Shown here: one piece after another, positions 21,933-36,477 of the stretch
Layout: each line of letters begins with the position of its first letter
Numbering within the stretch: position 1 is the first letter of the stretch
From: an uncultured Subdoligranulum sp.
GTDB taxonomy: Bacteria; Bacillota; Clostridia; Oscillospirales; Ruminococcaceae
NCBI GenBank assembly: GCA_945830575.1
Contig: CALZZE010000002.1
Location: 62,001-126,000 of the forward strand
Reading direction: 5' to 3'
DNA: 64,000 bases
The notes under the pieces: model-generated
Databases searched by the model: none
Told to the model about the DNA's origin: nothing
What the model saw: only the letters and a program-made list of their open reading frames with translations
Program-made: the position numbers and the translations under genes

Positions 21933-22280
21933 TTAATACTCCACCAGATTCATGGTGATTTCCCACACGGCCTGCCCTTCCCGGGCGGCGCGCAGGGCGG
22001 CGGTGCGGTCGCCGGCGTACATGGTGGCGGTGCGGGGCGACCCGAAGAAATACTCCACCGAAAAGCTGTCCGGCGCGGTGGCGTTGAGGATGGCGGCGCA
22101 CTCCCCGGTGGAGAGCGCGTACCAGTGCACTGCGATTTTCGCCACGCCGCCGCGCACCCGCTCCCGCACCAGCACGCCGTCCTCGGTGCGGCCGGTGCCC
22201 TCGCTGTCCAGATCCGACAGCGTCACCTGATACTCATGGGGCGTGGGCAGCGCTGTGCCGTCAATTTTCAGAATATCCAT
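21933..22280 (-). CDS. Phage distal tail/baseplate-like protein
   Basis: 115 residues, last gene of the phage-derived cluster. It begins MDILKIDGTALPTPHEYQVTLSDLDSEGTGRTEDG and is predicted mostly beta. Its place right after the tape measure is where a distal tail or tail-completion protein is expected in siphophage maps. The ATG at 22280 follows GGGAGGTGAGC, 3 bases after the tape-measure stop. Family recognition is by position and resemblance to small tail proteins of Clostridia prophages. Confidence 0.55.
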   Translation of the reverse strand: MDILKIDGTALPTPHEYQVTLSDLDSEGTGRTEDGVLVRERVRGGVAKIAVHWYALSTGECAAILNATAPDSFSVEYFFGSPRTATMYAGDRTAALRAAREGQAVWEITMNLVEY

Positions 22281-22282
22281 GC

Positions 22283-23908
22283 TCACCTCCCGCCGCTGCG
22301 CAGTATCCGGCGGCTCTGGCTGTTGGCCACCACGCTGTCCAGCAGCTCTTCCCCGATGTAGATGTTGATGGGCTGGCCGTCCCCGCCGCCCAGCGCGGCG
22401 AGAGTCTCGGCAAAGGCCTGTTTGATGGTGTCCAGCGGGGCCTCGATGTTGGTGCCGCTGCGCTGGTCGCCCAGCAGGGCGAGGAATTCCCGGTTAGGGG
22501 GAATGACCGCGCCGGAGGCCAGCGCCGGGACCTGAAACCGCACCCGGCTGCTGGTGAGCGCCGCTGCCGCGTTGCCCGCGGCGGCGGACAGGCCGTTGAA
22601 AACGCCCCGGCCCAGTGCCGCAAGGCTGCTGAACGCCGAGGAGATGGCCTGCACCATGCTGCGCACCACGCCCACCACGGCGTTGACCGCGTTCTGCACG
22701 GTGGCAACAATGTTCTGCCACACGGCTCCCACCGTCTGGGCCATGGCCTGCCACGCGGCGTTCCACTGCCCCTGCAGGGTGAGCGTGAGGAAATCCGCCA
22801 GCCCGCCCAGCAGGAGCAGCGCCGCGTTGACGCAGTCCGCCACGACGCCCACCGCCGCGGCCACGGCCTGTCCCACCGCGCCAAACACCTGCGCCACGCC
22901 GGGGCCGAGGGTGGCCGCCAGCCAGTTGAGCAGCGGCATGAGGGCGGTGTTCCACACCGTCAGCACCAGCTGCAATACCGAGCCGAGGGCCAGCACCAGA
23001 TTGTCCCACAGGGGCTTGAGATGCTCCGCCCACAGCTGGTCTGCCAGCGCGATAAACTGCGCCAACACCGGCTGCACCACGGTGGCCCAGAGGGTGCCCA
23101 GCAGCGTGCAGAGGTTCTGCACCCCCAGCGCGAGGCCGTCCAGAATGGGCTGGCCGTACGCTGCCCAGGCGGCGGTGATGCCGGTCATCATGTCCTGCCA
23201 GACGGTGAGCAACAGCCCCAGCCCGGGCAGCAGCACCGTGTTGAGCAGCCCGTCCACCACGCCGCACAGCCAGACGAACACCCCGCCCAGCGCGGTGAGG
23301 GCGGTGGACACCACCCCGCCCACGATGGGCGCGAAGGCCTGCGAAAAGCTGTTGACCACCCCGGGCAGAAACACGGTGGCAAGGTACTCCCCCAAGGGGG
23401 CCAGCGTGCCCTGCCACAGCGACACGGCGGCGGCGCGCACAGGCTCCCAGATGCTCAATGCCGCGGTTTTGATCTGCTCCCATGCCGCCCGCCACGCGGC
23501 GATGGCGGGGGCGTAGTACCGCTGCAAATACTCCCAGAAGGAGGCCCATGCGCCGCGCAGCGCGTCCAGCGTCTGCTGCCAGACGGTGGGGGCCTCCTCC
23601 TTTTTTGTTTTGCTGCCGGATGTTTTGCCGCTGGACCGTGCAGAGCTGGTCTTGCTGGTCTCGGCGGTGGTTTTGGGAGCGGTGAGACGGTTGATCTCGT
23701 CAAATTTTGCCAGTGAGCGCACCGTTTTGCCGGTGACGGCGGCGGTGGCGCGCAGACCGCTTTGCAGCTGCTGCAAAACCTCCTGCGCGCCCTCCCCGGC
23801 GCTGCCCACAGTGGAGAGACTGGCCGCCAGCTTGTCCAGCGCGGTGCGCAGTGCCGTGCTGCTCTGCACACCAGCGGCCAGCTCGTCAAAGGTAATGGTT
23901 TGCGCCAA
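22283..23908 (-). CDS. Phage tail tape measure protein
   Basis: 541 residues. Features of a short tape measure: a helical N-terminus (DKLAASLSTVGSAGEGAQEVLQQLQSGL), a lysine/serine-rich hinge (about 78-105), a long hydrophobic helical centre with repeated Trp-containing segments (TVWQDMMTGITAAW, LWATVVQPVLAQF, VWQNIVATVQNAVNAVVG), and a beta-rich C-terminus with PALASGAVIPPNREFLALLGDQ common to Firmicutes siphophage tape measures. By the usual length rule this predicts a short siphovirus-type tail of the order of 80 nm. It is separated from the tail chaperones by a palindromic element. Confidence 0.85.
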   Translation of the reverse strand: MAQTITFDELAAGVQSSTALRTALDKLAASLSTVGSAGEGAQEVLQQLQSGLRATAAVTGKTVRSLAKFDEINRLTAPKTTAETSKTSSARSSGKTSGSKTKKEEAPTVWQQTLDALRGAWASFWEYLQRYYAPAIAAWRAAWEQIKTAALSIWEPVRAAAVSLWQGTLAPLGEYLATVFLPGVVNSFSQAFAPIVGGVVSTALTALGGVFVWLCGVVDGLLNTVLLPGLGLLLTVWQDMMTGITAAWAAYGQPILDGLALGVQNLCTLLGTLWATVVQPVLAQFIALADQLWAEHLKPLWDNLVLALGSVLQLVLTVWNTALMPLLNWLAATLGPGVAQVFGAVGQAVAAAVGVVADCVNAALLLLGGLADFLTLTLQGQWNAAWQAMAQTVGAVWQNIVATVQNAVNAVVGVVRSMVQAISSAFSSLAALGRGVFNGLSAAAGNAAAALTSSRVRFQVPALASGAVIPPNREFLALLGDQRSGTNIEAPLDTIKQAFAETLAALGGGDGQPINIYIGEELLDSVVANSQSRRILRSGGR

Positions 23909-23949
23909 TGTGTCCCTCCTTTTCTGGAATCACGAATCGGGCTTTTTAG

Positions 23950-24121
23950 GGCAATACCGCATAATTCTACGTGCCGATATGGCGAGCGAGGTGTGCCAGC
24001 TGCTAAGCAAAAAGCGCAGATAATACTTTGTGTATTATCGAGCATTTTTGCGACGCAGATGGTGCGCATCGCTCGTCAGAGCGGTGCGTAAGGCGTCAGC
24101 CGTGAATTGTGCGGTGTTGCC
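23950..24121 (+). repeat. 172-bp palindromic element, copy B, with TTAG target duplication
   Basis: Starts GGCAATACCGCATAATTC and ends GAATTGTGCGGTGTTGCC, imperfect terminal inverted repeats. It is flanked on both sides by TTAG (23946-23949 and 24122-24125). A central hairpin, GATAATAC (24019-24026) with GTATTATC (24032-24039), is extended by GCAAAAA/TTTTTGC. It encodes no protein and lies in the gap between the Gp15-like chaperone and the tape measure. Confidence 0.9.
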
Positions 24122-24122
24122 T

Positions 24123-24150
24123 TAGGGGGCGGCGTCCCCGACGCCCCGCG
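24123..24150. repeat. Short GC palindrome (TAGGGGGCGGCGTC...GACGCCCCGC)
   Basis: GGCGTC-CCC-GACGCC core with TAGGGGGC on one side. The same unit occurs at 25258-25285 (inverted) and 47920-47948. The palindromic element copy B duplicated TTAG exactly at the edge of this repeat. Confidence 0.65.
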
Positions 24151-24153
24151 CTT

Positions 24154-24732
24154 TCACGCCAGCAGCTTTTGCAGCTCGGCGCGGGCGGCGGCCTCCTCGG
24201 GGGTCAGGCGGGGGCGCAGATCCACCTCGGTGCGGTGGGTGCGGTAAAATTCCAGCTCCCACCCCTCCAGCTTTTTGCCCCGGCGCAGCTTGTCCCGGAT
24301 GCCCACCACGGTGGACAGCGTGCCTTCCCCGATGGCCTCAAAATAGCTGAGAAAGGTCCACCAATGCAGATACCGCATGGCGCGGATCTCCCGCCCGGCC
24401 GCCTTGTTCACCCCCGCCGCAATCAGCGGCGCGTCCTGCCGCCAGTCCAGCAGCCGGGGGCCGGGGGCGGCGCGGTCGGGCCGACCGCCGGACAAAAACA
24501 CCGACAGAAACTCCGCCGCCTCCTGCCAGTCCTGCCGGGGGATGGCTCCGAAGTCCCGGTAAAACAGCCGCAGCGCCACATAGCAGCGCTCCTCCTGAGA
24601 CAGCTCGCCCCCTTCGTCGCCGTTCAGCCAGGCCAGTATCTCCAAAATATCACGATAATCCGTGTTGATTGGATACTGCCTGCCGTTCAGCACCGCGACG
24701 GTGGGCAGCGCCCAGGCTGTGGGGGCGCTCAT
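24154..24732 (-). CDS. Phage tail assembly chaperone, Gp15 family
   Basis: 192 residues. LPTVAVLNGRQYPINTDYRDILEILAWLN at the start, followed by LFYRDFGAIPRQDWQEAAEFLSVFLSGG, matches the bacteriophage Gp15 family found just upstream of tape measures in Firmicutes phages, where these proteins are thought to act as the longer tail chaperone. The conserved aromatic MRYLHWWTFLSYFEAIGEGTLSTVVGIRDKLRRGKKL motif is present. Its start overlaps the preceding stop (ATGA), an arrangement that replaces the programmed frameshift used by many phages. Confidence 0.8.
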   Translation of the reverse strand: MSAPTAWALPTVAVLNGRQYPINTDYRDILEILAWLNGDEGGELSQEERCYVALRLFYRDFGAIPRQDWQEAAEFLSVFLSGGRPDRAAPGPRLLDWRQDAPLIAAGVNKAAGREIRAMRYLHWWTFLSYFEAIGEGTLSTVVGIRDKLRRGKKLEGWELEFYRTHRTEVDLRPRLTPEEAAARAELQKLLA

Positions 24733-25199
24733 GCGGGCAGGGCCTGCCGGGCGGCGCGGCCGGCCTCGGCAGCCGCCACGGCGGCGTTCGCTTTGCCGGT
24801 GACGGTGCGCTGTGCGCCGTCCGCCAGCACGGGGGCCAGCGCCTCCAGCAGGTTCTGCACCACCCGCTGGCCGTTGGCGCCCACGCCCGCCAGATTGACC
24901 CCCTCCAGAATTACGTCAAAGTTGTTGGCTTCGCCAAAAATATCGGTGAGCAGCGCCTTGACGCGGCGGTCATAGTCCGCCATCAGCGCCAGCACCCGGA
25001 CGGCCCGTTCCTCCTCGGAGAGGGATTCCCCCTCCATAGCCCGCAGCGCGGCGGTCAGCTCCTCGTCCAGCTGAGCCAGCGGCTCTTTGGCGGCGAAAAA
25101 CCGGTGGTACACGTTGGGGTCACCGGGGTTGAACCGCAGCACGCCCCGCCCGTTGACGGAAAACTCCTGTACGCCGGTATCAATGGTCAGATTTTGCAT
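24729..25199 (-). CDS. Phage tail assembly chaperone (small component)
   Basis: 156 residues, starting MQNLTIDTGVQEFSVNGRGVLRFNPGDPNVYHRFF. An acidic helical middle (LDEELTAALRAMEGESLSEEERAVRVLALMADYDRRVKALL) is followed by a conserved FGEANNFDVILEGVNL segment and an Ala-rich tail. Location between the tail tube and the Gp15 protein marks it as the first tail chaperone. The ATG at 25199 follows AAAGGAGCCACC; a longer frame would run through the palindromic repeat at 25258. Confidence 0.7.
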   Translation of the reverse strand: MQNLTIDTGVQEFSVNGRGVLRFNPGDPNVYHRFFAAKEPLAQLDEELTAALRAMEGESLSEEERAVRVLALMADYDRRVKALLTDIFGEANNFDVILEGVNLAGVGANGQRVVQNLLEALAPVLADGAQRTVTGKANAAVAAAEAGRAARQALPA

Positions 25200-25257
25200 G
25201 GTGGCTCCTTTCTCAAAAACCAGAACGACAGCTTGCAGGAGGCGGTGTTCCCTGCCG

Positions 25258-25285
25258 CAGGGCGTCGGGGACGCCGCCCCCTGCA
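25258..25285. repeat. Short GC palindrome, inverted copy
   Basis: Reverse orientation of the unit at 24123 (GGGCGTCGGGGACGCCGCCCCCTGC on the plus strand gives the same core). It sits between the tail-tube stop and the chaperone start. Confidence 0.6.
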
Positions 25286-25289: not shown

Positions 25290-25763
25290 TTACGCTGCGG
25301 TGAAGGTCTTGGTCTGCACGTTGAAGGTGCCCTTGGTCTTGACGCCGGTGTAGTGCACGTTGAAGGGAATCTGGTAGCCGGTGGTGTCGCCGCCGTAGCT
25401 GACCACCTCCAGATACACCTCCTCCTTGACGGCGGGGTAGCTGCCCTCGCTGTCGGCGTCCCACAGCTTGACCTCCACCATATCGGTTTTCAGGTCATCC
25501 AGCACCAGATCGCCGTCCACAATGGCCTGCAGGCGCTCAAACAGCGCGTCGCCCTTGCTGGCGTAGTAGGGCGTGACCTCGCCCTGCTTCTGGTAGCTGT
25601 CGATGACCACCGAGGTCTGGCCCAGAATGTTGGACTTTTTCTCCACGTTGGCGGACAGCTCGGGGGAATATTCCTCCAGATCGCCGCCCAGCCGCACATA
25701 GCTGGCGGCGCCGTCGGTGGATGCGTTCAGGTAATGGGCCATGTACTTGCGTTCAATTTTCAT
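25290..25763 (-). CDS. Phage major tail tube protein
   Basis: 157 residues: MKIERKYMAHYLNASTDGAASYVRLGGDLEEYSPELSANVEKKSNILGQTSV, then a beta-rich body (VYLEVVSYGGDTTGYQIPFNVHYTG) ending GTFNVQTKTFTAA. The combination is typical of siphophage tube subunits in Clostridia. The ATG at 25763 follows AAGGAGGAATCTG, overlapping the stop of the upstream gene by 11 bases. Confidence 0.75.
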   Translation of the reverse strand: MKIERKYMAHYLNASTDGAASYVRLGGDLEEYSPELSANVEKKSNILGQTSVVIDSYQKQGEVTPYYASKGDALFERLQAIVDGDLVLDDLKTDMVEVKLWDADSEGSYPAVKEEVYLEVVSYGGDTTGYQIPFNVHYTGVKTKGTFNVQTKTFTAA

Positions 25764-26184
25764 CAGATTCCTCCTTGTCGGTAAATTCCGCCGTCAGGCG
25801 GACAATGTAATGGTCGGTGCCCTCGGCCCCGGCCTGTTCCAGACGGCCCTCCCCGGCGGTGAGGGTCTCCCGGTGCTGCTCGGCATTGCCCAGCCGGGGA
25901 TGGTCCCGGCGGCTGTTCACCCAGCTCTGCACCGCCAGCAGACGGTCGGCGTTGTCCGCCGCGGCGGCGCTGGGCAGCACCAGCCGCACAAGAAACACCG
26001 CTTTGCACCGCAGCGTCACGCCGCCGCACAGGTTTTCGGTGCGTTTGAGCACCTCCACGCCCTGGGGGTAGACCCCGCCCCCGCCGGGGGCAGGGCCGAG
26101 GGCGTCGGTGGTAAAGGCGATGTCCGCCAGCGGCGATGCGGCGGACAGCCATTCGGTCAGGTCATGGATGGCGGTTTGTGTCAT
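25753..26184 (-). CDS. Phage tail terminator-like protein
   Basis: 143 residues. It begins MTQTAIHDLTEWLSAASPLADIAFTTDALGPAPGGGGVYPQG, with a beta sandwich pattern after it and NADRLLAVQSWVNSRRDHPRLG in the middle, like the tail terminators encoded just before tail tubes. Position in the head-to-tail gene order supports the call; the sequence itself is not diagnostic. Confidence 0.6.
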   Translation of the reverse strand: MTQTAIHDLTEWLSAASPLADIAFTTDALGPAPGGGGVYPQGVEVLKRTENLCGGVTLRCKAVFLVRLVLPSAAAADNADRLLAVQSWVNSRRDHPRLGNAEQHRETLTAGEGRLEQAGAEGTDHYIVRLTAEFTDKEESDEN

Positions 26185-26188: not shown

Positions 26189-26587
26189 TCACCTCGTCAG
26201 TCCCTTTGCGCCGCTGCCGGAGGTATTCCACCACGCGCCGGCCTCCACGTGATGCACCCGGCCGCCCAGCGTGAAGGGGGTCACGTACTCCACCACCGCC
26301 ACGCGGCGGTCGGCGGCGGGCACAAAGCCCGGCCAGTCGGAAACCGTGAGGATGGGGCCTTCCCCATCACACACCCGGTCGCCGGGGTCCAGCAGGTAAT
26401 CCTGCCCGTACTCCCCCGCCGCGGCGGGGATGACCAGCAGCATCATGGCGCCGGTGCAGGTGCCGGAGGTTTCCGGCAGGGCGCGGCGGCCCCGCTGCCA
26501 GTGCACGCCCCGCAGCACGGTGCGGCGCACGGTGTCCTCCTCCAGACGGTACAGCGTCACCGTCTGAGCGTACAGGTCACATCGCAT
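26189..26587 (-). CDS. Phage head-closure-like protein
   Basis: 132 residues, MRCDLYAQTVTLYRLEEDTVRRTVLRGVHWQ. It is mostly beta, with a DYLLDPGDRVCDGEGPILTVSDW segment characteristic of small head-completion or minor capsid proteins. The ATG at 26587 lies inside the end of the connector gene (11-base overlap). The role is inferred from the slot between connector and tail terminator. Confidence 0.55.
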   Translation of the reverse strand: MRCDLYAQTVTLYRLEEDTVRRTVLRGVHWQRGRRALPETSGTCTGAMMLLVIPAAAGEYGQDYLLDPGDRVCDGEGPILTVSDWPGFVPAADRRVAVVEYVTPFTLGGRVHHVEAGAWWNTSGSGAKGLTR

Positions 26588-26948
26588 CGGCCCACCGCCC
26601 AAATGTCAGATAGTACCCGGCCTCCCGGCGGAAGTGGGCCTCCCGCAGGCTCAGCGTGGTGGCGCACAGCGCCGCGGGGGCCACGTAGGTCTCGCTGACG
26701 GAACCCACGCTCACCCTGGCAAGGCCGCGGCCCTCGTCCTCCTGCTCGAACTCGTACATAGCCTCCGCCACGGCGCAGAGGGCGCAGGCCTCGGCGTCCT
26801 CGATGCCGGGGCGGGGGCGGATGTCGAACAGGCCCTTCCAGCGGGCCAGCTGGTCGGCGGCGCGCTTCATCAGGCGGGGAAACGCCGTCTCCGGGATGTC
26901 CTCACCGAGATAATTTTCGCGGTAAAACGTATAGTCCGGCAATGGCAT
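26577..26948 (-). CDS. Phage head-tail connector (HK97 gp6-like)
   Basis: 123 residues, mainly helical: MPLPDYTFYRENYLGEDIPETAFPRLMKRAADQLARW, then EDAEACALCAVAEAMYEFEQ. Helical adaptor proteins of this size follow the capsid gene and join the portal in siphophages. It starts 8 bases after the capsid gene stop with GGAGGC upstream. Confidence 0.65.
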   Translation of the reverse strand: MPLPDYTFYRENYLGEDIPETAFPRLMKRAADQLARWKGLFDIRPRPGIEDAEACALCAVAEAMYEFEQEDEGRGLARVSVGSVSETYVAPAALCATTLSLREAHFRREAGYYLTFGRWADAM

Positions 26949-26956: not shown

Positions 26957-27925
26957 TTACGCTTTGAACTTCGCCAGCACCACCTTGGCCTCGTTGGACA
27001 GCACCGCCACGTAGAACTCGTCGGCGGTGATTTCGGTGGTGCGGGTCTTGGGCTTGCGCTCGGTCTCGATGTTGACCTCCCGCTTGCGGTAGATGGTGAG
27101 AGCGGGAATTTCATCCTCGGTCTCGGGGTCGGCCTCCAGCTTGACGATGGGGCAGGCGTAGACGGGGGTGGTGCTCTTGGTCACCTTGTCACCCTCCCTG
27201 GCGGCGGGCAGGGTCTTCTGCACCTCGGCCAGATTCTCCCCGGTGACCTGCTCGCCGGAGGCGTCGAACTTGTACCACTCGTTCAGCACCGGCACCTTTT
27301 TGCTGGGCACGATGCGGCAGCCCGCGATCATGCCCACCTCGCCGGTGAGGGTGACGCCGGGCTGGTACTTGTCGGCGGAGAGGAAGTCGGCGTTTTTGCG
27401 CAGCTGGGTGACCTGCTTGGGATGGATGAACAGCACCTTGTCGGAGCTGCCCATCTCCTCCTCGAACAGGTCCACCGCGTCCACGATGCCGTTGTAGGTG
27501 ATGGCGGTGGCGGATCCGTCAAACAGCAGGGTGGCGGTCTGGAGGGCGTCCATGCAGTCGTTGTCGATTTTGGCGGCGATGGACATGGCCAGCTGGGTGT
27601 TGGCCTCGCCCACCGGGTTGCCGTAGCCGGACAGCACCGCCTCATCAGTGAGACCGATGCCCTTCATGGCCTTCTTGATGGTGGCCTTGCGGGTGGAGGT
27701 GGTCATTTTCTCGATGGCCACCTCGCCGCCCTCGGCCACATCGGCGGCGTCACCGATGTAGGTGTAGGCGGGCACCGTGATGGTGTCGCCGGGCACGCCG
27801 GCCAGCGTGTCGTCGATTTTGGCGAAGGGGGCCACCCGCAGCTTTTTGGGGATGCGGGCGGAGACCATGTCCGCCATGACTTCCGGGTCAATGAGGTCGT
27901 TCAGCTTGGTGATGAAATCAGCCAT
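26957..27925 (-). CDS. Phage major capsid protein (N4-gp56/HK97-like fold)
   Basis: 322 residues, starting MADFITKLNDLIDPEVMADMVSARIPKKLRVAPFAKIDDTLAGVPGDTITVPAY, the pattern of the N4-gp56 family of capsid proteins. Next come GDAADVAEGGEVAIEKMTTSTRKATIKKAMKGIGLTDEAVLSG and the central FIHPKQVTQLRKNADFL motif. The C-terminal region includes the mainly beta P-domain (ALTIYRKREVNIETERKPKTRTTEITADEFYVAVLSNEAKVVL). No separate maturation protease gene is present nearby. Confidence 0.85.
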   Translation of the reverse strand: MADFITKLNDLIDPEVMADMVSARIPKKLRVAPFAKIDDTLAGVPGDTITVPAYTYIGDAADVAEGGEVAIEKMTTSTRKATIKKAMKGIGLTDEAVLSGYGNPVGEANTQLAMSIAAKIDNDCMDALQTATLLFDGSATAITYNGIVDAVDLFEEEMGSSDKVLFIHPKQVTQLRKNADFLSADKYQPGVTLTGEVGMIAGCRIVPSKKVPVLNEWYKFDASGEQVTGENLAEVQKTLPAAREGDKVTKSTTPVYACPIVKLEADPETEDEIPALTIYRKREVNIETERKPKTRTTEITADEFYVAVLSNEAKVVLAKFKA

Positions 27926-28023: not shown

Positions 28024-28194
28024 TCAGCCCCGCAGGGCGCGGTAGGTTTCGGGGTCGTCCCGTTTCAGGGCCAGCCGTTCCCGGTAGCCCATGCGGTCAA
28101 AGGCCGCCCGGTCGGTGCCCACCGGCGCGGTGCCGGTGCCCGCCGCGTAGGGCGCGGGGGTCTGGGGCGCGGTGCTGGCGTTGGTTTCCTCCAT
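28024..28194 (-). CDS. 56-residue protein between portal and capsid genes, possible mini-scaffold
   Basis: Residues 1-30 are Ala/Pro/Thr-rich and probably disordered; residues 33-56 (FDRMGYRERLALKRDDPETYRALRG) form an amphipathic charged helix like the C-terminal capsid-binding tip of phage scaffolding proteins. Full scaffolds in related phages are about 200 residues, so this would be a strongly reduced one. The ATG at 28194 follows AAAGGAGGTGACA. Confidence 0.5.
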   Translation of the reverse strand: MEETNASTAPQTPAPYAAGTGTAPVGTDRAAFDRMGYRERLALKRDDPETYRALRG

Positions 28195-28218
28195 AATTGT
28201 CACCTCCTTTCGCATTTA

Positions 28219-29523
28219 TTACGGCATATATTTCTGGCGGATGGCCGCCAGCGCGTCCTCGCCGTCATGGGGCAGCGAGAAATACCACGCCAGTGCCAGC
28301 TCGGGGCGCAAAAGGCCGTCCGCCACCATCTGGCGCTGCTCCTCCCACAGGCGGGCGCGGTCGTACAGCACGCCGTTCCCCCAGTCGATGGTCAGCGCCC
28401 GGGGGTCGAAGGTGCCGCCGTACTGGCCGTACAGCCTGCCCAGCGCGGCGCACAGCGCCATGGCCTGCCGGGCGGCGGCCTCCCAGGTGCGCTGCAATTC
28501 CCGGATGGTCAGGTCATAGTCCGCGCCGGTGGCGGCGATCTCGGCGGCGGTGCGCTCGGTGTCGGCAGCCTCGCTGAGCAGGCCCCGTTTCAGCCCCAGC
28601 AGATTCTCGATGCTGCGCAGAATATCCTGCTTGCGGTTCAGATAGCTCTGCTCCCGCAGCGCCGGGCTGTACACCGTGACCCCCACGTTGGCGGGGTCGT
28701 CGGGCAGACCCACGAACAAATCATCCCGCAGGCCGCGCCGCCCGGAGGCGTCGGTGCGCAGCAGGTCCTCCGAGGCAAACACCCGGGAGGCACCGTTGCG
28801 GAACTCCGCCTCCAGCTGGGCATCGCACCGGGCCAGCGCCCGGATCAGCCCCACCGCCGGGGCGTACAGCGACACCGCCTCGCCGCTGCCGTCCACGCAG
28901 TTCACCAGCGGCATGCGCAGCGCCGCCAGCCCCACGCCGGGCACACCGGGCAGCACCAGCTCCGGCACAAGGCCCTCGCAGGCGGGCAGCGTGTTCAGCG
29001 GCACGCTGCGGCCAAGGGTCTGGCCGTTCACCTCAAACAGCCGCGTCTCGATGGTCAGCCCCTCCGCCCCGGCGCAGCGCCGCTCCAGCAGCGCGTAGCG
29101 GCGGCCGTTTCCGGTGAGCAGCTCCATGCTGCCCACCGCCTGCAGGGCGCCGGCGCTGTCCCGGGCCAGCGGCACGTAGCAGTCCCGCCGCAGCGGCACA
29201 AAGGCCGGGCCACCGGGCTTCAGCACCGGCTTCAGCAGGCACTCGCCGCCCGCCATGGCGTACTGCATGGCGGTGCCGCGCACGCTGTCCAGCGCCGCCA
29301 GCGCCCCCTGCATCCAGGGGTCCGGGTCGTCCAGACTGCTCTCATACTCCGCAAACACGGTGCGGCTCAGCTTTCCCACCAGCACCACCGGCAGGCGGGC
29401 GGCGGGGTCTTCTCCGGGGCGGGCCGCGCCGTAGTACAGCTCCAGCCATTCCCGCTGGGCGGCACGCATTTTCGGCGTTGTCACATCGCTTTTTCCAAAC
29501 GCCTGTTCCAGAAAGCTCTGCAC
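28219..29523 (-). CDS. Phage portal protein (A118/SPP1-like)
   Basis: 434 residues; portals form the dodecameric DNA channel of the capsid vertex. Characteristic segments include MRAAQREWLELYYG near the N-terminus, LVGKLSRTVFAEYES, the GLRDDLFVGLPDD clip region and RSIENLLGLKRGLLSEAADTERTAAEIAATGADYDLTIRELQR around residues 300-350. The C-terminus is slightly shorter than in SPP1-like portals (about 500 residues). It is placed after the holin rather than after terL, which is unusual. Confidence 0.8.
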   Translation of the reverse strand: MQSFLEQAFGKSDVTTPKMRAAQREWLELYYGAARPGEDPAARLPVVLVGKLSRTVFAEYESSLDDPDPWMQGALAALDSVRGTAMQYAMAGGECLLKPVLKPGGPAFVPLRRDCYVPLARDSAGALQAVGSMELLTGNGRRYALLERRCAGAEGLTIETRLFEVNGQTLGRSVPLNTLPACEGLVPELVLPGVPGVGLAALRMPLVNCVDGSGEAVSLYAPAVGLIRALARCDAQLEAEFRNGASRVFASEDLLRTDASGRRGLRDDLFVGLPDDPANVGVTVYSPALREQSYLNRKQDILRSIENLLGLKRGLLSEAADTERTAAEIAATGADYDLTIRELQRTWEAAARQAMALCAALGRLYGQYGGTFDPRALTIDWGNGVLYDRARLWEEQRQMVADGLLRPELALAWYFSLPHDGEDALAAIRQKYMP

Positions 29524-29791: not shown

Positions 29792-29795
29792 TCGT

Positions 29796-30026
29796 TCATT
29801 CCTCCTTCTCCAGCCTGTGCAGCCGGTCATCGTGCTGGTCCAGCCGCTGCCACAGCCGGGTGTGGGTCTGCCGGTTGTCGGATTCCAGCCGGTCCAGCCG
29901 CTGGGCCATGTTTTCCAGCATGGTGGTCAGCCGGGTAATGCTCCGGTTCAGCTCCACCACCGGGCGGCCCACCGTCACAAACAGTCCCACCAGCGCCACC
30001 AGCACCGTGACCACAGTCCATTCCAT
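29796..30026 (-). CDS. Small membrane-anchored coiled-coil protein (XhlA-like)
   Basis: 76 residues: one N-terminal membrane segment (TVVTVLVALVGLFVTVGRPVV) and then a continuous heptad-rich coiled coil (LNRSITRLTTMLENMAQRLDRLESDNRQTHTRLWQRLDQHDDRLHRLEKEE). Such proteins accompany holins in Firmicutes prophages and are compared with XhlA (hemolysin-like membrane proteins). Confidence 0.65.
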   Translation of the reverse strand: MEWTVVTVLVALVGLFVTVGRPVVELNRSITRLTTMLENMAQRLDRLESDNRQTHTRLWQRLDQHDDRLHRLEKEE

Positions 30027-30037: not shown

Positions 30038-31438
30038 TCAGCTTTCCCGAATCGTATAGGTGACCTTCATGGTCTGGCTGGCGGTTTTGGTGACGGGGCT
30101 GTCCAGATTGTTGATGGACCCCAGATACGGTTCCCGCACGCAGGGGTAGCACATGTTCAGGTTGTCGCCGCTGTAGGGGGACCTGACGCGCAGCGTCACC
30201 GGCCCGCCGCCGGTCAGGGGCACCGTATCGTAGCAGTGGTAGGCGCCCATCTCGGTGCAGAACACCGCATTTTTGAGGGTATCCAGCACCCGCACCGTGT
30301 TCCCGTAGGAGGAATAAATGCGGCCATGGTGGGCGTCAAACAGCGTAGAGAGCTCCAGCCCGTTGCGGTTGATGGGGGTCACATCGGTGGGGTCCTCCAG
30401 CGGGACGCTGTACAGGTTTCCGGCGGTGGTGCGGAAATACAGGCGGCCATTGTACACCTTCCCGTGGATGCACGGGGGACTGGCCTCGCTGTACAGCGTG
30501 GTGTCCAGCGTTTCCGACAGGGTGTTGGTGAAGGTGTAGACGGTCTGGCTCCAGTCCGCCATGTTGATCTCCAGAACCTTCATGGTCGTCGAGCCGCTTG
30601 TGCCCCCCGCCACCACATAGAGCCGCCCGCGTTCCTCGTCATAGTCCACCCGGACGGTGTTGGTGTAGGTGCTCTGCACGATGTCGGACAGGTCGATCTC
30701 TTTGGACAGCGTGTAGCCCATCGACCGGTTTGCGCCGGCGTCCTGCAGCAGGCTGATGCTGCGCAGCTGCGCCCCCGCCTTGTAGAGCCGCAGCGCCTTG
30801 GTGCCGGTGGAAAGCACCAGCCGTGCGCACCAGACGGTGTCGGTGTCCAGGTCCACCAGCACGGGCGAGCCGTAGTTTTCGTAAAATTTCCGGGCCTTGG
30901 TGCCGGGGAACAGGTTGATCTGTTCGCCCCACAGGAAATCCATCTCGCCGGGGACGACGGTGGTCAGCGCGGCGCAGGACTGGGGCATTTCCCCCAGCAT
31001 GGCGGCGTTGCGGGAGGTCAGGCAGGCGGCGGCGATGGTGCCGTTGGCCTGACTGGTGGTGAAGTCATAGACCAGACGCAGTTCCTTGTCCTCATAGTTG
31101 AGGGCGCTTTCGGTGGCGTTGTAGGAGCCGCGTCTGGTGTTGAGTCCGGCGTTGACCGCGTTGTACCGGGCGGTGCCGGTGATGTCCACCCCGGCGGGGG
31201 CGTACAGGGTATCCGCATCCCCGGTGATGGCGGTGTCCAGCAGCAAAAGGCCGCCGTAGAACCGGCTCCAGAGGCTGCCGGAGCCGTCGTAGAGCTTGTC
31301 TCTGCCGTTCATCAGTTCGGGAAAGGCGGCAAAGATACGGCTCACCGCATTGGTAATCAGGTTGTCATGTTCCACCGTTTGGACCTCGCCGGTGTGTACA
31401 TCGGTCAGTTCCAGACGGGTATGCCCGTGCAGGGCCAT
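30038..31438 (-). CDS. Phage tail fibre-like structural protein
   Basis: 466 residues, starting MALHGHTRLELTDVHTGEVQTVEHDNLITNAVSRI, an N-terminal domain common in Clostridia prophage tail fibres. The second half has repeated strand patterns (VRVDYDEERGRLYVVAGGT, GKVYNGRLYFRTTAGNLYSVPLED, FDAHHGRIYSSYGNTVRVLDTL) like a beta-propeller, which may bind a cell-surface receptor. It follows the other fibre-like gene. Confidence 0.6.
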   Translation of the reverse strand: MALHGHTRLELTDVHTGEVQTVEHDNLITNAVSRIFAAFPELMNGRDKLYDGSGSLWSRFYGGLLLLDTAITGDADTLYAPAGVDITGTARYNAVNAGLNTRRGSYNATESALNYEDKELRLVYDFTTSQANGTIAAACLTSRNAAMLGEMPQSCAALTTVVPGEMDFLWGEQINLFPGTKARKFYENYGSPVLVDLDTDTVWCARLVLSTGTKALRLYKAGAQLRSISLLQDAGANRSMGYTLSKEIDLSDIVQSTYTNTVRVDYDEERGRLYVVAGGTSGSTTMKVLEINMADWSQTVYTFTNTLSETLDTTLYSEASPPCIHGKVYNGRLYFRTTAGNLYSVPLEDPTDVTPINRNGLELSTLFDAHHGRIYSSYGNTVRVLDTLKNAVFCTEMGAYHCYDTVPLTGGGPVTLRVRSPYSGDNLNMCYPCVREPYLGSINNLDSPVTKTASQTMKVTYTIRES

Positions 31439-31451: not shown

Positions 31452-32567
31452 TTAATTCACAAAATTCATTTGCAGGCTTGTCAGCGTTTCGCTGTCGTGC
31501 AGCGTCAGCCGCAGCAGCAGGCGGCGGTTTTCCGGCAGGGCGTCCCACAGCGCCGCCGGGTCGGCGGCGAGGAATTCGGTGAGGGTCTGTTCCCGGCCGT
31601 AGGTCACGCCGCCGTCCATGGACAGGCTGACGCCGATGGTTCCGCTGGCCGCGGCGGCCAGCGACGCGATGCCAAGGATGCTCTCGTGGCTCATGTCGCA
31701 CACAGCCACAACAGGCTGGTCGGGCGGCGTGGCGATGACGGAGCCGGTCAGTTCCTCCAGTTCCCCGCCGCTGGTCCAGCGGTAGACGGCGGGGCAGGTC
31801 AGACCGGAGAGCAGCGCCGCGCCGGGCAGTTCCTCGCAGCCGTACTCCGTAAAGACGGCGGCGCTGACAGCGCTCACCGCCTCCAGCGGCACAAGCGCGC
31901 CGTCCTCCACGGTGTAAAACACCCCCTGAGACTCCACCAGATGCCGTACCTCCTCGCCCAGCAGCTGGATGCACTCGCACACGACGGGGGACTGGCTTTC
32001 CTGAGAGAAGGTGCGGTTCCCCGGCTCGCCCCAGTCCAGCAGATTGGCCTGCCGGGGCTGGGTGGAGGCCTGGTCCAGCGAGATCATTCCCTCGCTGCTG
32101 CCGTTGCAGGCCCATGTCCCGTAGGGCGCGGTGGTTTTCCACACGATGGCGCTCAGGCACCACAGAAAGACTTCTCCCTCCGGGCGCTGTACGGTAAAGC
32201 TGGCAACCGTCGCAGAGGAAAGGTACTCCGCCCCGGCACACCAGCGCAGTGTCGTCACGCCGGAGAAGGCCAGCAGGTTGAGATAGATGCGGGAGCTGCT
32301 GCTCTGTTTCATGGCAAAGCTGACGGTTTCATCCTGGGTGACGCGGCGGTACAGCACCGCCATACGCTGCTTTGTGCCGGAGGAGGCGGTCACATCGCTG
32401 CTTTCCGCCAGCAGGGTCCAGCCGGCGGGATAGGTGGGGGTGCTGCGCACCGACACCGTTGCCACCACCATCTGCCCCGCCGCGGCCTCCAGCGTGCCGG
32501 TGAGGGCGGTGCTGCCGTTGACCTCAAAGCAGGCGCTGTTTTCCAGTGCAATGGAAGATGCTGCCAT
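31452..32567 (-). CDS. Phage tail/appendage protein, beta-sandwich type
   Basis: 371 residues, almost entirely beta. The N-terminal 190 residues have the pattern of phage carbohydrate-binding or jelly-roll domains (ALTGTLEAAAGQMVVATVSVRSTPTYPAGWTLLAES, VLYRRVTQDETVSFAMKQSSSSRIYLNLLAFSGV). The C-terminal part ends with an SLSMDGGVTYGREQTLTEF segment similar to fibre-associated modules. It starts directly after the hub gene stop (no gap). A host-recognition role is inferred. Confidence 0.5.
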   Translation of the reverse strand: MAASSIALENSACFEVNGSTALTGTLEAAAGQMVVATVSVRSTPTYPAGWTLLAESSDVTASSGTKQRMAVLYRRVTQDETVSFAMKQSSSSRIYLNLLAFSGVTTLRWCAGAEYLSSATVASFTVQRPEGEVFLWCLSAIVWKTTAPYGTWACNGSSEGMISLDQASTQPRQANLLDWGEPGNRTFSQESQSPVVCECIQLLGEEVRHLVESQGVFYTVEDGALVPLEAVSAVSAAVFTEYGCEELPGAALLSGLTCPAVYRWTSGGELEELTGSVIATPPDQPVVAVCDMSHESILGIASLAAAASGTIGVSLSMDGGVTYGREQTLTEFLAADPAALWDALPENRRLLLRLTLHDSETLTSLQMNFVN

Positions 32568-34463
32568 TCAATTCACCTCGATTCGTTCCACAGATTTGTA
32601 CCGTTCGGTGTCCACCCGCACCACGCAGCACAGGCCCGCGTCCACCGGCACCAGCTCGGCGGGGACGGTGAACTGCCGGCGCAGCGCAAAGCAGCCGTTT
32701 TCGGTGGTGACCCAGTCCTCCGCAAAGGTGACGGGGGTGGCGGTGGTGAGCAGCCAGTCCCGGACGATGAAGCCCGGCGGCGTCAGCTCGCCGACCGTTG
32801 TGCGCAGAACAAGGCCCCGGCTGCCCAGCGGCATGACGGGGAGCGTCAGCGCGATGCCCGCCGTCTGCGGCGTCTGGCAGGCCAGCTGCCAGCTGTCCTC
32901 CAGCGGGCAGGCGGTCAGCGCGGCGCAGCCCAGCGCCGCGGCCGCGAAGGTCTCCTCCAGCTCCAGCATGCCGTCCCACTGGGCCTTGCCCGCCAGATTC
33001 TGCCCGGTGATGACCGCCTGCAGGTCCTCTTTTTCCACGCAGGCGGTGCAGCCATCGGTGAGCAGCCGCACCGTCCAGTTGTACAGCGTGCCGCCCTCCA
33101 GCGCAGAAACGGGGTACATCAGCGCCAGCAGCCACGGCCCCGCGCCGACGGTCTGCACGGGGGCGTAGTCCAGCGTGGTGCCGTTGAGGGCGTAGCGCAC
33201 CGTCACGGTGGGCGGGGTTTCGGCGTCCTCCTCCGGGGTGACGGTGAGCTTGAGCTGGGCCAGAAACAGCACGGTGGTCTCATCGGTGGGGGCAAAGACC
33301 ACGCTGGCCAGCGTGGTGTCCACGCCGGGCAGCGCGGTGACGGGCCTGCCGTTGGCGAACCGGTAGTAGATGGTCTTTTGCCGCTGGGCCTGCGTTTGCA
33401 GCTGGTGCAGCGTGCGCTGCTCCTGGCTGGTGCCGCCGGAAAGGTGGGGGTTCTTGCCTACCCCCTTGAGGGTGGAGCCGCCCCGGAACTTCCACACCAG
33501 ATGGGTCACCAGCGTTTCGGTGTGCTTGTCCGGCAGGGCCAGCCGGTCGCCGGGGTCCAGCGTGGGGTCGCCGGGGGCGCTCAGGCTGGCGGGGGTGTAG
33601 TCGGCGGCGGCCAGACCGGGCAGCAGCGCCTCCAGCAGCGCCTGCCGCCGTTCCTCCAGTCCCTTTTCCAGCAGCGGGGCGTTTTCCACCGCCAGCACCA
33701 GACCGCCGTCCTGTTCCGCATACGCGCCCAGTCCTCCGGCGGTGACGCCGCAGTAATGGCACTGAAAATCCGACAGGGTCAGTCCGCTGCGCCCCGAGGC
33801 GTCCAGCGCCGCGGCGGCGCTCTGCCCGAACCGGCGCAGCACCAGCGCCCCGGCCCGGTCCACCGTGCCGAAGCCGCCCACCGCCTGCGCCAGCGCGGCA
33901 AAGCAGTCCCGCCAGGTCTGGCAGCCGTCGGTGGCGTCCAGCTGGAACAGTTCGTTTCCGTTGGGAAAGTCCGCCAGCTCCGCCTCGGTGCAGCCCACCG
34001 CCAGACCGCAGCCTTCTGCAATCTGGCACAGCATTTCATAGGGGGTGCCCTGCAAAATGGTGCCCGGGTAGGTGCCGCACAGCGCCAGCATATTGTCGTA
34101 GGCCTTGACGCGCACCGACACGCTGCCCCGCTCCGCCTCGGCCACGGTGTACACCCCCAGCGGGATGGAATACCACCGGCCCTCCACAAGGATGCCGTAG
34201 GTGAGCGTCACCTTTGCGCCGTACAGCGCGTAGCGGCTCAGGGCGGTGCGCAGCTGGAAGGCCGCCTGTCCCAGATACACGCAGCCGTATTCCAGCTCCT
34301 GCCCGTTGACGCACTGGTTGTCGATGGTCACCGAGCCGCTCATCAGGTCGGCGGCGCCGAAGTTCAGCACGGTGCCGTCGGTGAGGGTCAGCGTGCCGGT
34401 GAGCCGGTCGGTGCGGGTGCGGGCCTGCAGCGCGGCGCGGCAGGCCTCCGATACTGTGTACAT
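32568..34463 (-). CDS. Phage tail hub/baseplate protein
   Basis: 631 residues. The first 350 contain features of the gp27/gpD-type hub domains: RLTGTLTLTDGTVLNFGAADLMSGSVTIDNQCVNG, YGAKVTLTYGILVEGRWYSIPLGVYTVAEAERG, LCQIAEGCGLAV, and DPTLDPGDRLALPD, as in prophage hub proteins that follow the distal tail protein. The rest is a series of beta domains (DLQAVITGQNLAGKAQWDGM and others). The ATG at 34463 overlaps the terL stop by one base, so this baseplate gene is directly coupled to terminase, which is not the usual order. Confidence 0.65.
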   Translation of the reverse strand: MYTVSEACRAALQARTRTDRLTGTLTLTDGTVLNFGAADLMSGSVTIDNQCVNGQELEYGCVYLGQAAFQLRTALSRYALYGAKVTLTYGILVEGRWYSIPLGVYTVAEAERGSVSVRVKAYDNMLALCGTYPGTILQGTPYEMLCQIAEGCGLAVGCTEAELADFPNGNELFQLDATDGCQTWRDCFAALAQAVGGFGTVDRAGALVLRRFGQSAAAALDASGRSGLTLSDFQCHYCGVTAGGLGAYAEQDGGLVLAVENAPLLEKGLEERRQALLEALLPGLAAADYTPASLSAPGDPTLDPGDRLALPDKHTETLVTHLVWKFRGGSTLKGVGKNPHLSGGTSQEQRTLHQLQTQAQRQKTIYYRFANGRPVTALPGVDTTLASVVFAPTDETTVLFLAQLKLTVTPEEDAETPPTVTVRYALNGTTLDYAPVQTVGAGPWLLALMYPVSALEGGTLYNWTVRLLTDGCTACVEKEDLQAVITGQNLAGKAQWDGMLELEETFAAAALGCAALTACPLEDSWQLACQTPQTAGIALTLPVMPLGSRGLVLRTTVGELTPPGFIVRDWLLTTATPVTFAEDWVTTENGCFALRRQFTVPAELVPVDAGLCCVVRVDTERYKSVERIEVN

Positions 34464-35704
34464 TAGTTTCCTCTCCTTTTCCAAATGGTCTCCACCGCAT
34501 AGCGCACCGCGTCAATGTGGTGGTTGTTCACGTCGGGATAGCCGGGCAGCACCTCGCCGGTGCGGGGGTCCCGCTGGTACTCATACTCGCTGAATTCCGC
34601 CGCGGTGTCGGGGCAGCGGCCCGGGTCAATGACGATGGCGCAAAGCCCCTGCAGCCACTTCATGCTTTCCCGCACGCTGCCGGGGCCTTTCTGGGCGGCG
34701 CGGCAGGGCAGCCCGGCGGCCCGGTAGTCGGCGCAGGATTTCGGCTCCGCCGCGTCGGCGGTGAGAAAGCCGCCGTCCTCCCCCACGCCCCGCTCCCGCA
34801 GCAGGGCGGCGGTGTCCCGGTTGGGGGTGCGGGTGCGGGTCAGTTCGTCAAAGATGTACAGGGTGCGGCGGGCCGCGTCGTAGCTGACGGCGTTGTAGGC
34901 CCAGGGGTCGGGGTACCAGCCCCAGTCCACGCCGTGGTACAGCCGGTCAAAGGCGGCGATGGTCTCCCCGTCCAGCGGCTCCAGACGCAGGTTGGCAAAC
35001 ACCGCCGCGCCGCTGCCCACCACCTCGCCCAGATACTCGTGGCGGTAGGCCTCCGGGTTGGTTTCTTTGAGATGCGCCGCGTCCGCCAGAAACTTCGGTC
35101 CCAGCCAGTCCGGCGGCAGGTCCAGACAGGTGGAATGATGCACCAGCCGCCCGGGGCGGGTCTGCAAAACGTAGCGGTTCACCCAGCTGCGGGCCATGGC
35201 GGGCGGGTTGAAGCTTTTCAGCGTCAGGGCGTAGTCGCCGCCCCGGAAGACGCTCTGCTCCACGCTGCGGATCTCCTCGGGGCCGTCAAACTGGTCCAGT
35301 TCCTCGAACCATGCGATGCCCACCGCCCCGAAGGGCACCTTGAGGGATTTCAGCTTGCCCGCGTCGTCCAGCCCGAAGAACAGGATTTTCTGCCCGGTGG
35401 GCAGGTAGGTACATTCCATGGGGCTGACGGTGCATTTGAACCGCCCGGCCAGCCCCAGCGCGCCGATGGCCCAGGTGATCTGGGCGTAGACGCTGGCCCG
35501 CATGGTGCCCGCCACCTTGCGCAGCACCACGGCGTGGCAGTCCGGGTGGCGGAGCAGCTGCAGAACCAGCTCCAGCGAAAGGTAGCTGCTTTTGCCGGAG
35601 CCGCGCCCGCCCTTGGCCACCACCTCCTGCACCCGGCCGCTCTGCACGGCCCGGTGCACCGGCCAGAACACCGGGGCGATCACCTCCTTCAAGCGTATTT
35701 TCAT
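34463..35704 (-). CDS. terL: Phage terminase large subunit
   Basis: 413 residues; PBSX/SPP1-like motor and nuclease that packages DNA into the prohead. ATPase: Walker A GGRGSGKSS (residues 32-40), Walker B VGIAWFEELDQF (about 130). Nuclease: first metal Asp in HGVDWGWYPDPWAYN, DAAEPKS, and last Asp in NNHHIDAVRYAVE near the C-terminus. All key acidic residues seem intact, so packaging activity is plausible. The start overlaps the small-subunit stop by 4 bases (ATGA). Confidence 0.92.
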   Translation of the reverse strand: MKIRLKEVIAPVFWPVHRAVQSGRVQEVVAKGGRGSGKSSYLSLELVLQLLRHPDCHAVVLRKVAGTMRASVYAQITWAIGALGLAGRFKCTVSPMECTYLPTGQKILFFGLDDAGKLKSLKVPFGAVGIAWFEELDQFDGPEEIRSVEQSVFRGGDYALTLKSFNPPAMARSWVNRYVLQTRPGRLVHHSTCLDLPPDWLGPKFLADAAHLKETNPEAYRHEYLGEVVGSGAAVFANLRLEPLDGETIAAFDRLYHGVDWGWYPDPWAYNAVSYDAARRTLYIFDELTRTRTPNRDTAALLRERGVGEDGGFLTADAAEPKSCADYRAAGLPCRAAQKGPGSVRESMKWLQGLCAIVIDPGRCPDTAAEFSEYEYQRDPRTGEVLPGYPDVNNHHIDAVRYAVETIWKRRGN

Positions 35705-35910
35705 GGTTCCTCCTTTCCCACATCGTCCACAATGACCACGCCTTCCTCACCGCCGCCGTCGCCCAGACCCAGATGCTTGTACAGCAGCTCCAGCGCCCGC
35801 AGCTTGTCCGCGATTTTCAACGGCAGAGCCTCCGGGTCACGGGGGTCCGCGAAGGCGATGCAGGCCAGCTCGTCCAGCACTTGTTCCGGCGTGATGGGCT
35901 GCAAGGGCAT
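35701..35910 (-). CDS. terS: Probable terminase small subunit (short)
   Basis: 69 residues, MPLQPITPEQVLDELACIAFADPRDPEALPLKIADKLRALELLYKHLGLG. The last helix (KIADKLRALELLYKHLGLGD) is the signature C-terminal part of small terminase proteins. The usual N-terminal HTH is missing or much reduced (terS proteins are commonly 120-200 residues), so DNA recognition may be altered, which is compatible with non-specific packaging. GGGAGGTG precedes the ATG. Confidence 0.6.
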   Translation of the reverse strand: MPLQPITPEQVLDELACIAFADPRDPEALPLKIADKLRALELLYKHLGLGDGGGEEGVVIVDDVGKEEP

Positions 35911-35923
35911 CACCTCCCTTCCG

Positions 35924-35936
35924 TGTTGTCCCAACA
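35924..35936 (-). repeat. Palindrome TGTTG-TCC-CAACA ahead of terS
   Basis: Perfect 5-base arms separated by 3 bases just beyond the terminator. It has GTTG/CAAC arms as in the two operator-like palindromes but with opposite polarity. Confidence 0.35.
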
Positions 35937-35937
35937 A

Positions 35938-35976
35938 AAAAGGTGCCCACCCCTTAAACGGGGCAGCACCTTTCGT
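35938..35976 (-). terminator. Terminator or attenuator upstream of terS
   Basis: On the minus strand AGGTGCTGCCCC pairs with GGGGTGGGCACCT across a GTTTAA loop, followed by TTTTTT. It lies 15-20 bases after the putative start of the 35998-36026 promoter and before terS, so it must be read through or antiterminated for the structural operon to be expressed from that promoter. Confidence 0.75.
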
Positions 35977-35997
35977 GTGTCAATTTTCGATGGTACC

Positions 35998-36026
35998 ATT
36001 ATACAACCTTACGTTGTGAAATACAA
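35998..36026 (-). promoter_or_regulatory. Promoter P2 of the phage-derived structural operon, with ACAAC-N5-GTTGT operator
   Basis: TTGTAT (36021-36026), 17-base spacer, TATAAT (35998-36003), minus strand. The palindrome ACAAC-CTTAC-GTTGT (36003-36017, plus-strand reading) fills the spacer. The same arms and spacing occur at P1 (36500-36514). Confidence 0.6.
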
Positions 36027-36066
36027 TGAATTTTTTTGAAATATTTTGAAATCTTTTTCCCCTTTC

Positions 36067-36477
36067 TCAAAGCCTCATGCTGTCCACGCCGGCCCGGTGC
36101 AGCTGGTAGGCCCGGCGGGCCACAAGGCCCATCTGCCCGCCGATTTCCTCAAAGCTCTGGCCCAGAATGTAGCGGCGGCGCAGCACCTCCCGCTGCTGCT
36201 CCACCGGCACGGTGCTGATGGCCTGCGCCACCTGTCCGCGGGCGGAAAAACAGCCTGCCAGCTGGGTTTCCAGCCGGTTCTGTGCCTCCACGATGCGCTC
36301 CACCGCCCGGGGGATGCGGTCCTGTGCGCCGCCCTTTGCCCCCGGCATGCCGGACAGCACCGCCGTCATGCGGGTAGCCTCGCTGCGCAGCTGTTCGATC
36401 TCCTCCTCCAGCATCCGCTGGCGGCTGAGGTTGCTCTGGTACTGTTCCAGAAAACGGACTTTTTCCTTGTAGGTCAT
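36067..36477 (-). CDS. ArpU/sigma-region-4-like phage regulator
   Basis: 136 residues. The N-terminal half is a coiled coil (KEKVRFLEQYQSNLSRQRMLEEEIEQLRSEATRM). The C-terminal half is PVEQQREVLRRRYILGQSFEEIGGQMGLVARRAYQLHRAG, an HTH like region 4 of sigma-70 factors (YILGQSFEEIGGQMGL). This layout is that of ArpU/RinA-like late transcription regulators of Gram-positive phages. The ATG at 36477 follows GGGAGGGAATTTTC. It is transcribed from P1, whose start point lies in an operator-like palindrome, and could autoregulate and control P2. Confidence 0.7.
   Translation of the reverse strand: MTYKEKVRFLEQYQSNLSRQRMLEEEIEQLRSEATRMTAVLSGMPGAKGGAQDRIPRAVERIVEAQNRLETQLAGCFSARGQVAQAISTVPVEQQREVLRRRYILGQSFEEIGGQMGLVARRAYQLHRAGVDSMRL

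Follow-up and report, generated by a model that had tools for sequence, protein, structure and literature searches.

Is a compact set of phage-type head, tail and packaging genes in the chromosome of a gut bacterium the residue of a prophage, or has it been kept by its host as a gene transfer agent (GTA)? The question is raised by the 64,000-nucleotide stretch analysed here (the window; bases 62001-126000 of contig C2 in a draft genome of 2.88 Mb and 69 contigs), in which about 14.5 kb on the minus strand, from position 36507 down to 21933, encode a siphovirus-type particle in open reading frames (ORFs) that are all intact. GTAs outside the Alphaproteobacteria are few. A first-pass annotation, made from the sequence of the window, had proposed a GTA rather than a normal prophage, and the conserved position of the cluster, its low ratios of nonsynonymous to synonymous substitution (dN/dS) and the agreement between host and cluster trees all favor that proposal. 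We consider it likely that the locus is a GTA-type element of the genus Gemmiger (Ruminococcaceae), that is, a set of siphovirus particle genes which the host lineage domesticated at, or close to, the base of the genus and has passed on vertically ever since.

All 19 ORFs of the cluster were scanned with PHROGs, and Pfam searches were made as well (Table 1). Structural and packaging genes derived from caudoviricetes are present, among them an HK97-fold capsid gene. The inventory of the first-pass annotation, a full particle set on one strand in about 14.5 kb, held by family match for the sigma-like regulator, small terminase (TerS), large terminase (TerL), portal, capsid, adaptor, tape measure, DUF6711, tail/hub and holin genes. 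For head closure, tail terminator, tube and the two chaperones, gene order is the main basis of the assignment, the matches being to function-unannotated PHROGs or to none, and the two fibers that had been listed are unproven. The PHROGs scan of the 19 ORFs gave no match to families of integrases, repressors or replication proteins, and neither the window cluster nor the flank proteins scanned contained integrase, replication or lysogeny genes. The cluster is bounded by the host genes galE (left) and rsmI (right), both intact, and its GC content (63.8-69.8% in 2-kb windows) is similar to that of the flanks. In these respects, and in the lack of an endolysin gene in the window copy, the earlier description was accurate.

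To place the cluster in its genus, we used 35 Gemmiger genomes, one per species; 40 loci (L065-L104), some of them from other genera, were fetched. The capsid gene was present in 25 of the 35, and in 16 of the 19 genomes with a completeness of 90% or more and a contamination of 5% or less. In 20 of the 25 carriers it lies on the same contig as the cardiolipin synthase gene cls, 2.3-5.7 kb away, which is the conserved position that the first-pass annotation had suggested looking for; the two genes are 19-20 kb apart in two carriers (the window's genome and G025) and on separate contigs in three, and the orientation of cls is reversed in two (G028 and G029). The usual order in relatives is regulator, TerS, TerL, portal, small protein, capsid, adaptor and so on to tape measure, DUF6711 and hub, with a GH25 lysozyme gene and another holin gene, or an M23 peptidase gene, farther downstream in some. 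Cluster genes are missing from G018, G022 and G028 because contigs end. The ten capsid-negative genomes comprise one clade of eight, G030, and G003, which is 82% complete and retains cluster-type TerS-TerL. When galE and rsmI were sought beside the cluster in relatives there were no matches in the 40 loci, the usual neighbor being cls; around rsmI in eight sister species (L309-L316; six carriers and two non-carriers) there was no cluster gene, save for a sequence in L316 that weakly resembles the tape measure (26% identity). On the upstream side of the non-carrier loci cls was present in nine of nine and degT-fdtA in three. A search for the empty site by comparing carriers with non-carriers matched this upstream side alone, shared host genes on the far side not being found.

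Divergence of the cluster follows that of its hosts. Host distances were taken from Clp ATPase and rsmI (whose own mutual r was 0.71) and covered the 15-19 genomes having both markers and the gene in question. Correlations with these distances were 0.94 for portal (n=18), 0.92 for TerL (n=19), 0.93 for the second chaperone-like gene (tac2), 0.82 for capsid, 0.70 for the tube-like gene and 0.76 for the tape measure gene (TMP), and 0.937 (n=17) for a six-gene head and tail set; in no case did any of 2000 permutations reach the observed value. The capsid was slower than the host pair (mean distance 0.16 vs 0.19). Against a three-gene host set, TerL of all 25 genomes gave r 0.77, with none of 5000 permutations as high, whereas 11 other, prophage-type TerL copies used as a control gave r 0.22, a value reached by 436 of 5000 permutations. 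In the nine genomes having both kinds, the cluster TerL gave r 0.85 and the prophage-type TerL r 0.29 (246 of 5000 permutations). Quick trees with SH-aLRT (Shimodaira-Hasegawa-like approximate likelihood ratio test) support were also compared: 18 of 22 splits were common to the cluster and host trees, as opposed to a maximum of two in 500 random relabelings. We conclude that the cluster is inherited vertically with its host.

The dN/dS ratios were calculated for 12 chosen close pairs, which share genomes and so are not independent, with pairs lacking a gene left blank. They were 0.02-0.20 for TerL (12 of 12 pairs), 0.11-0.21 for portal (11 of 12), 0.045-0.154 for capsid (12 of 12) and no higher than 0.23 for the tube-like gene (nine pairs), compared with 0.03-0.21 for host rsmI (10 of 12). 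TerL, portal and capsid are thus under purifying selection, with ratios well below 1 in the very genes that the first-pass annotation had singled out. There was no sign of relaxed selection on the window copy, since the terminal branch leading to it in the cluster tree is 0.95 times as long as that of its host. Of the patterns which the same annotation had listed as speaking against domestication, a larger, integrase-bearing version of the cluster was not seen in relatives, whose flanks were not scanned whole for integrases; distribution is not generally patchy, as eight of the ten capsid-negative genomes form one clade; and frameshifts in most structural genes were not found, the exceptions being the capsid of G011 and the incomplete clusters of G013 and G033.

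The window TerS has 68 residues from the ATG at 35907, or 78 from an upstream TTG, within a stop-to-stop frame of 92 codons, and it matches only positions 111-130 of the 141 of Terminase_2, below the curated cut-off; the short TerS with no clear helix-turn-helix (HTH) described earlier was therefore real. In contrast, the full-length TerS of three loci from other genera (L101, L102 and L104; 162-164 residues) match Terminase_2 from 3-6 to 134-138. Aligned with these three, 15 of 15 called cluster TerS are without the N-terminal ~66 residues, the expected HTH region, and 15 of 15 have in common a second, internal deletion of ~31 residues. Some called TerS ORFs start farther upstream, the longest being those of L076 and L082, perhaps from a wrong start; 18 cluster stop-to-stop frames (75-124 codons, L076 included) passed a threshold of E 0.001 and align with the full-length profile from no earlier than position 115, seven other cluster loci falling below the threshold. 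The AlphaFold model of the window TerS consists of two helices (mean predicted local distance difference test score, pLDDT, 78.5), and a Foldseek search with it returned no match at E <= 0.001. The alignments indicate that the cluster TerS has lost its N-terminal HTH DNA-binding domain. In a different Ruminococcaceae genus (our code g12) two TerS frames of 119-127 codons (L373:9649-10029 and L374:10066-10422) begin to match full-length phage TerS only at position 69-72, and possibly represent another HTH-less, GTA-like terminase.

In one clade of ten species (SH-aLRT 94) TerS-TerL do not adjoin the cluster. This count includes G003, by its TerS-TerL alone, and G001 (83% complete), in which no TerL was found. 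In the other nine, TerS-TerL are located at a second conserved site: eight species have one flank in common, and for the ninth, G004, where the contig runs out, it is the other flank that recurs in G025, G002 and G022. G. formicilis ATCC 27749 (G007, contig NZ_FUYF01000006.1) has one TerL, that of the cluster, by a search with three Pfam TerL families in eight genus genomes. Three species of the unlinked clade carry a gene for a BTAD/SARP-type regulator right after the lysis genes (L066:4901-6118, with homologues in L069 and L091), a candidate regulator of the particle.

By five tested features, namely phage-derived genes, vertical inheritance, absence of replication and integration genes (with dispersed TerS-TerL), purifying selection and an HTH-less TerS, the locus is of GTA type. 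We propose that the sigma-like regulator at the head of the cluster probably turns on the late genes, and that a TerS without its DNA-binding domain would no longer recognize a pac site, yet would still couple to TerL. Lacking pac recognition, the terminase would load capsids with whatever pieces of the chromosome it meets. The resulting siphovirus-like particle would be released by holin and endolysin; some sister species encode an endolysin within the cluster or next to it, and there is none in the window's cluster.

The cluster is similar in size to that of RcGTA, the agent of Rhodobacter capsulatus. The two are alike in having an HK97-fold capsid and a siphovirus-type cluster, in a TerS (gp1) that appears to be without an N-terminal HTH DNA-binding domain (PMC6854486) and in vertical descent with genes at several loci (PMC9662315). 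Their capsids differ. The best match of the Gemmiger capsid in the PDB, by sequence (E 2.5e-73) and by fold, is that of phage NF5 (9m66), and its model (mean pLDDT 74.8) matches HK97-fold capsids; the GTA capsid 6tb9 ranks 39th by fold, far below NF5, with 14% identity, and when PDB sequences were searched with a capsid profile, no RcGTA chain came up at E <= 0.01 though 6tb9 is in the PDB. By sequence, then, the Gemmiger capsid is not recognizably RcGTA-like. The nuclease half of TerL matches PDB 2wbn, which we take to be that of SPP1, and the portal as a single sequence had no meaningful match in the PDB.

Published data on the genus bear directly on this proposal. Long-read sequencing of virus-like particles from feces detected seemingly random chromosomal fragments of 8.4-8.9 kb from Faecalibacterium and Gemmiger (Borodovich et al. 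2026; PMC12946183), and a figure legend there calls G. formicilis a "possible GTA"; the paper was the sole match in our search for literature on gene transfer agents and Gemmiger. According to that paper, the operon for the Faecalibacterium agent, FpGTA, was not found in Gemmiger or Subdoligranulum, ATCC 27749 being among the genomes searched, and no genes for the Gemmiger packaging are named. FpGTA, described there as the second known GTA-like system in Gram-positive bacteria after PBSX, was compared by description only. It resembles the Gemmiger cluster in belonging to the same family, in its wide occurrence (12 of 12 Faecalibacterium genomes its authors examined), in a TerS without an obvious DNA-binding domain, in having genes at two separate loci and in the same packaged length. 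It differs in being podovirus-like (10.5 + 5.5 kb), whereas the tail genes of the Gemmiger cluster are of siphovirus type and include a tape measure. PBSX of Bacillus subtilis, likewise compared by description, is another phage-derived particle of a Gram-positive host and is called GTA-like in the same source, which also has it acting as a tailocin-like killer. These packaging data strengthen the inference that the cluster makes DNA-filled particles, and it is the best candidate and likely source of the 8.4-8.9-kb Gemmiger DNA in fecal particles; at ~14.5 kb it is longer than one such fragment, and the link between particle and locus is drawn by us. The fuller proposal, that this is a siphovirus-type GTA lineage, domesticated independently and of roughly the same age as the genus, which supplies the fecal Gemmiger DNA, became non-specific by deletion of the DNA-binding half of TerS and in one clade exiled its terminase, we hold as rather more probable than its opposite.

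Several findings weigh against a functional GTA. In the host tree the cluster is absent from one clade of eight species and from G030, the capsid of G011 looks frameshifted, and the fetched stretches of the G013 and G033 clusters are without tac1, tac2 and TMP and without portal, respectively. Tail-tip genes differ from species to species; constraint is weaker on TMP (dN/dS 0.14-0.61, 8 of 12 pairs) and TerS (up to 0.62, 9 of 12 pairs); the prophage-type TerLs still hold some host signal; and the siphovirus-type tail is unlike the podovirus-like FpGTA of PMC12946183, although both genera package the same size. The window copy has its capsid gene ~20 kb from cls, a hub-fiber-holin block that separates TerL from portal rather than closing the cluster, an insert resembling a miniature inverted-repeat transposable element (MITE) just before the tape measure, and no endolysin. 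Finally, the locus is known here from its genes alone, and from these we infer expression, particle formation, random packaging and gene delivery.

A host-maintained particle like PBSX, which packages host DNA and acts as a bacteriocin against kin without delivering genes, would fit the particle genes and holin, the vertical descent and the purifying selection equally well. It would also suit a variable tail tip: at a coverage of at least one half, dit6711 was recovered in 8 genomes, hub638 in 8 and fibB in 7, vs 25 for capsid, a count in which fetched stretches ending early are part of the cause and from which five tblastn-derived ORFs (four TerS and one tac1) were left out because the aligned stretch crossed a stop. 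The same alternative is raised for FpGTA in PMC12946183. As TerL, portal and capsid rank with the most conserved genes of the cluster, as TerS-TerL are kept even when relocated, and as a killer has no obvious need for a maintained pac-less terminase, we regard this explanation as unlikely. A tailocin we reject on account of the presence and constraint of head, portal and terminase, and a chance assembly of phage genes on account of gene order and co-evolution. Slow decay of a defective prophage at a popular site would agree with the absence of integrase, replication and repressor genes from the ORFs scanned, with the lost or broken genes of G013, G033 and G011 and with the insert in the window copy; it is very improbable given packaging-gene dN/dS like that of host genes, a cluster tree that mirrors the host tree and a window cluster evolving no faster than its host's genes. 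A temperate phage that is still active, re-inserts next to cls and diverges in step with its hosts is the last alternative: some of the same genomes do hold further TerL copies (63-80% identical), but the lack of integrase, replication and lysogeny genes from the window cluster and the flank proteins scanned, the TerS without the usual DNA-binding domain, the poor agreement of prophage-type TerLs with the host and the unlinking of the terminase throughout one clade leave it scarcely credible.

Domestication as a GTA thus remains the reading we prefer, and phage-type relatives of the cluster can be recognized. They include L073 in the same genome (contig C21), L072 in G008 and L101, L102 and L104 in other genera, with TerL 66-80% and, where matched, tube 60-83% identical and the regulator in most; the TerS of the last three are full-length, as opposed to 68 residues in the window. 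The genus prophages L073 and L072 have primase or helicase genes close to the same late genes. L073 (G000:C21:1-20000), in which a minor capsid gene is present and the cluster capsid finds no match, is 80% identical to the cluster in TerL, 83% in the tube-like gene and 84% in DUF6711 but only 45% in portal, which suggests gene exchange between prophage and cluster. L101 (G054:C1:3060001-3080000), with a 61% identical capsid, a full-length TerS and, among the proteins scanned, glycosyltransferase and ATP-grasp genes upstream, is perhaps an intermediate or a decayed prophage. The same element was sought in other Ruminococcaceae genera at 20 loci with TerL matches, of which nine gave a portal match (23-40% identity), four a capsid match (33-39%) and none cls; because of these few matches we take such loci to be mostly different phages.

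The window's own copy has an unusual gene order, read from a draft contig, on which the first-pass annotation was silent, as it was on the MITE-like repeat and on the ~20 kb between cls and capsid. The repeat family (~180 bp) has 52 matches in the genome, the query included, with further copies at 37117-37294, between the cluster and rsmI near the right cluster border, and at 56067-56237; such repeats may have mediated the rearrangement. For lysis this copy may depend on other genes, and an M23 peptidase gene is present in the C21 prophage of the same genome. The start codon of the 638-residue tail/hub-like ORF, which overlaps TerL, is uncertain. Beyond rsmI the right flank continues with genes for an acylphosphatase, a copper-type ATPase and a Glu/Gln tRNA-synthetase-like protein. 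Between the regulator and rsmI, at 36615-36947, is a 110-residue ORF that matches no family and none of the 40 fetched loci and may not be a gene, and between the cluster end and galE is a palindromic repeat ('...ggggtcttgacccc...') at 21780-21930.

Table 1. Features of the particle cluster in the window, with the neighboring host gene of most sister species
Feature	Position	Strand	Evidence
Sigma-like/late transcription regulator (sig), first cluster gene	36067..36507	-	phrog_36 5e-18; Sigma70_r4 2.6e-5; precedes TerS or portal in relatives
TerS, 68 aa, N-terminal DNA-binding half absent	35701..35907	-	phrog_51; Terminase_2 111-130/141; alignment with full-length phage-type TerS; two predicted helices
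TerL, large terminase	34463..35704	-	Terminase_3 E 1.5e-38; phrog_3717; nuclease half matches PDB 2wbn TERMINASE LARGE SUBUNIT
Tail protein/hub-like, 638 aa	32568..34484	-	phrog_23052 1e-86; phrog_6616 tail protein; downstream of DUF6711 in relatives
371-aa protein, possible tail/fiber	31452..32567	-	No convincing family match; no matches in 40 fetched loci
466-aa protein, possible tail/fiber	30038..31438	-	phrog_19291 8e-41 (function-unannotated); homologue after hub638 in 6 loci
Small protein, 76 aa, adjoins holin	29796..30026	-	phrog_1009; homologues in L079, L094 and own-genome C21 prophage L073
Holin	29528..29830	-	Phage_holin_1 4e-28; phrog_297; no matches in 40 fetched loci, where other holins are present
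Portal	28219..29523	-	phrog_533 1.2e-51
Conserved small protein, 63 aa, between portal and capsid	28024..28215	-	Same-place matches in relatives
Major capsid protein, HK97 fold	26957..27925	-	Phage_capsid_4 7e-17; phrog_544 2e-81; PDB 9m66 phage NF5 capsid
Head-tail adaptor	26577..26948	-	phrog_541 3e-11
Head-closure-like (by order)	26189..26602	-	phrog_3366 0.0035 only; conserved in relatives
Tail-terminator-like (by order)	25753..26184	-	No family; conserved in relatives
Tail-tube-like (by order)	25290..25763	-	phrog_3099 2e-48 (function-unannotated); 77-84% identity across Gemmiger clusters
Tail assembly chaperone-like 1 (by order)	24729..25199	-	phrog_11299
Tail assembly chaperone-like 2 (by order)	24154..24732	-	phrog_706
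MITE-like repeat between chaperone 2 and tape measure	23912..24152	-	52 matches in own genome, itself included
Tape measure protein (TMP), 541 aa	22283..23908	-	phrog_1535 4e-32; phrog_58 3e-19
DUF6711 tail protein, distal-tail-like by order	21933..22286	-	PF20458 3.6e-8; phrog_1194
Host cardiolipin synthase (cls), cluster neighbor in most sister species	47959..49506	+	PLDc_2

With TerS from before and after the deletion side by side, the comparison shows clearly how a terminase of phage origin may lose its specificity, and the locus supplies candidate genes for the GTA-like packaging of Gemmiger, in cultured strains too (G. formicilis ATCC 27749). These candidates make particle-borne gene transfer in a human gut genus directly testable. 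If our reading is true, then, with FpGTA, two distinct phages have been domesticated in related genera, yielding particles of equal capacity. Captured virus genes, inherited in most sister species, could explain the DNA-carrying Gemmiger particles in human feces.

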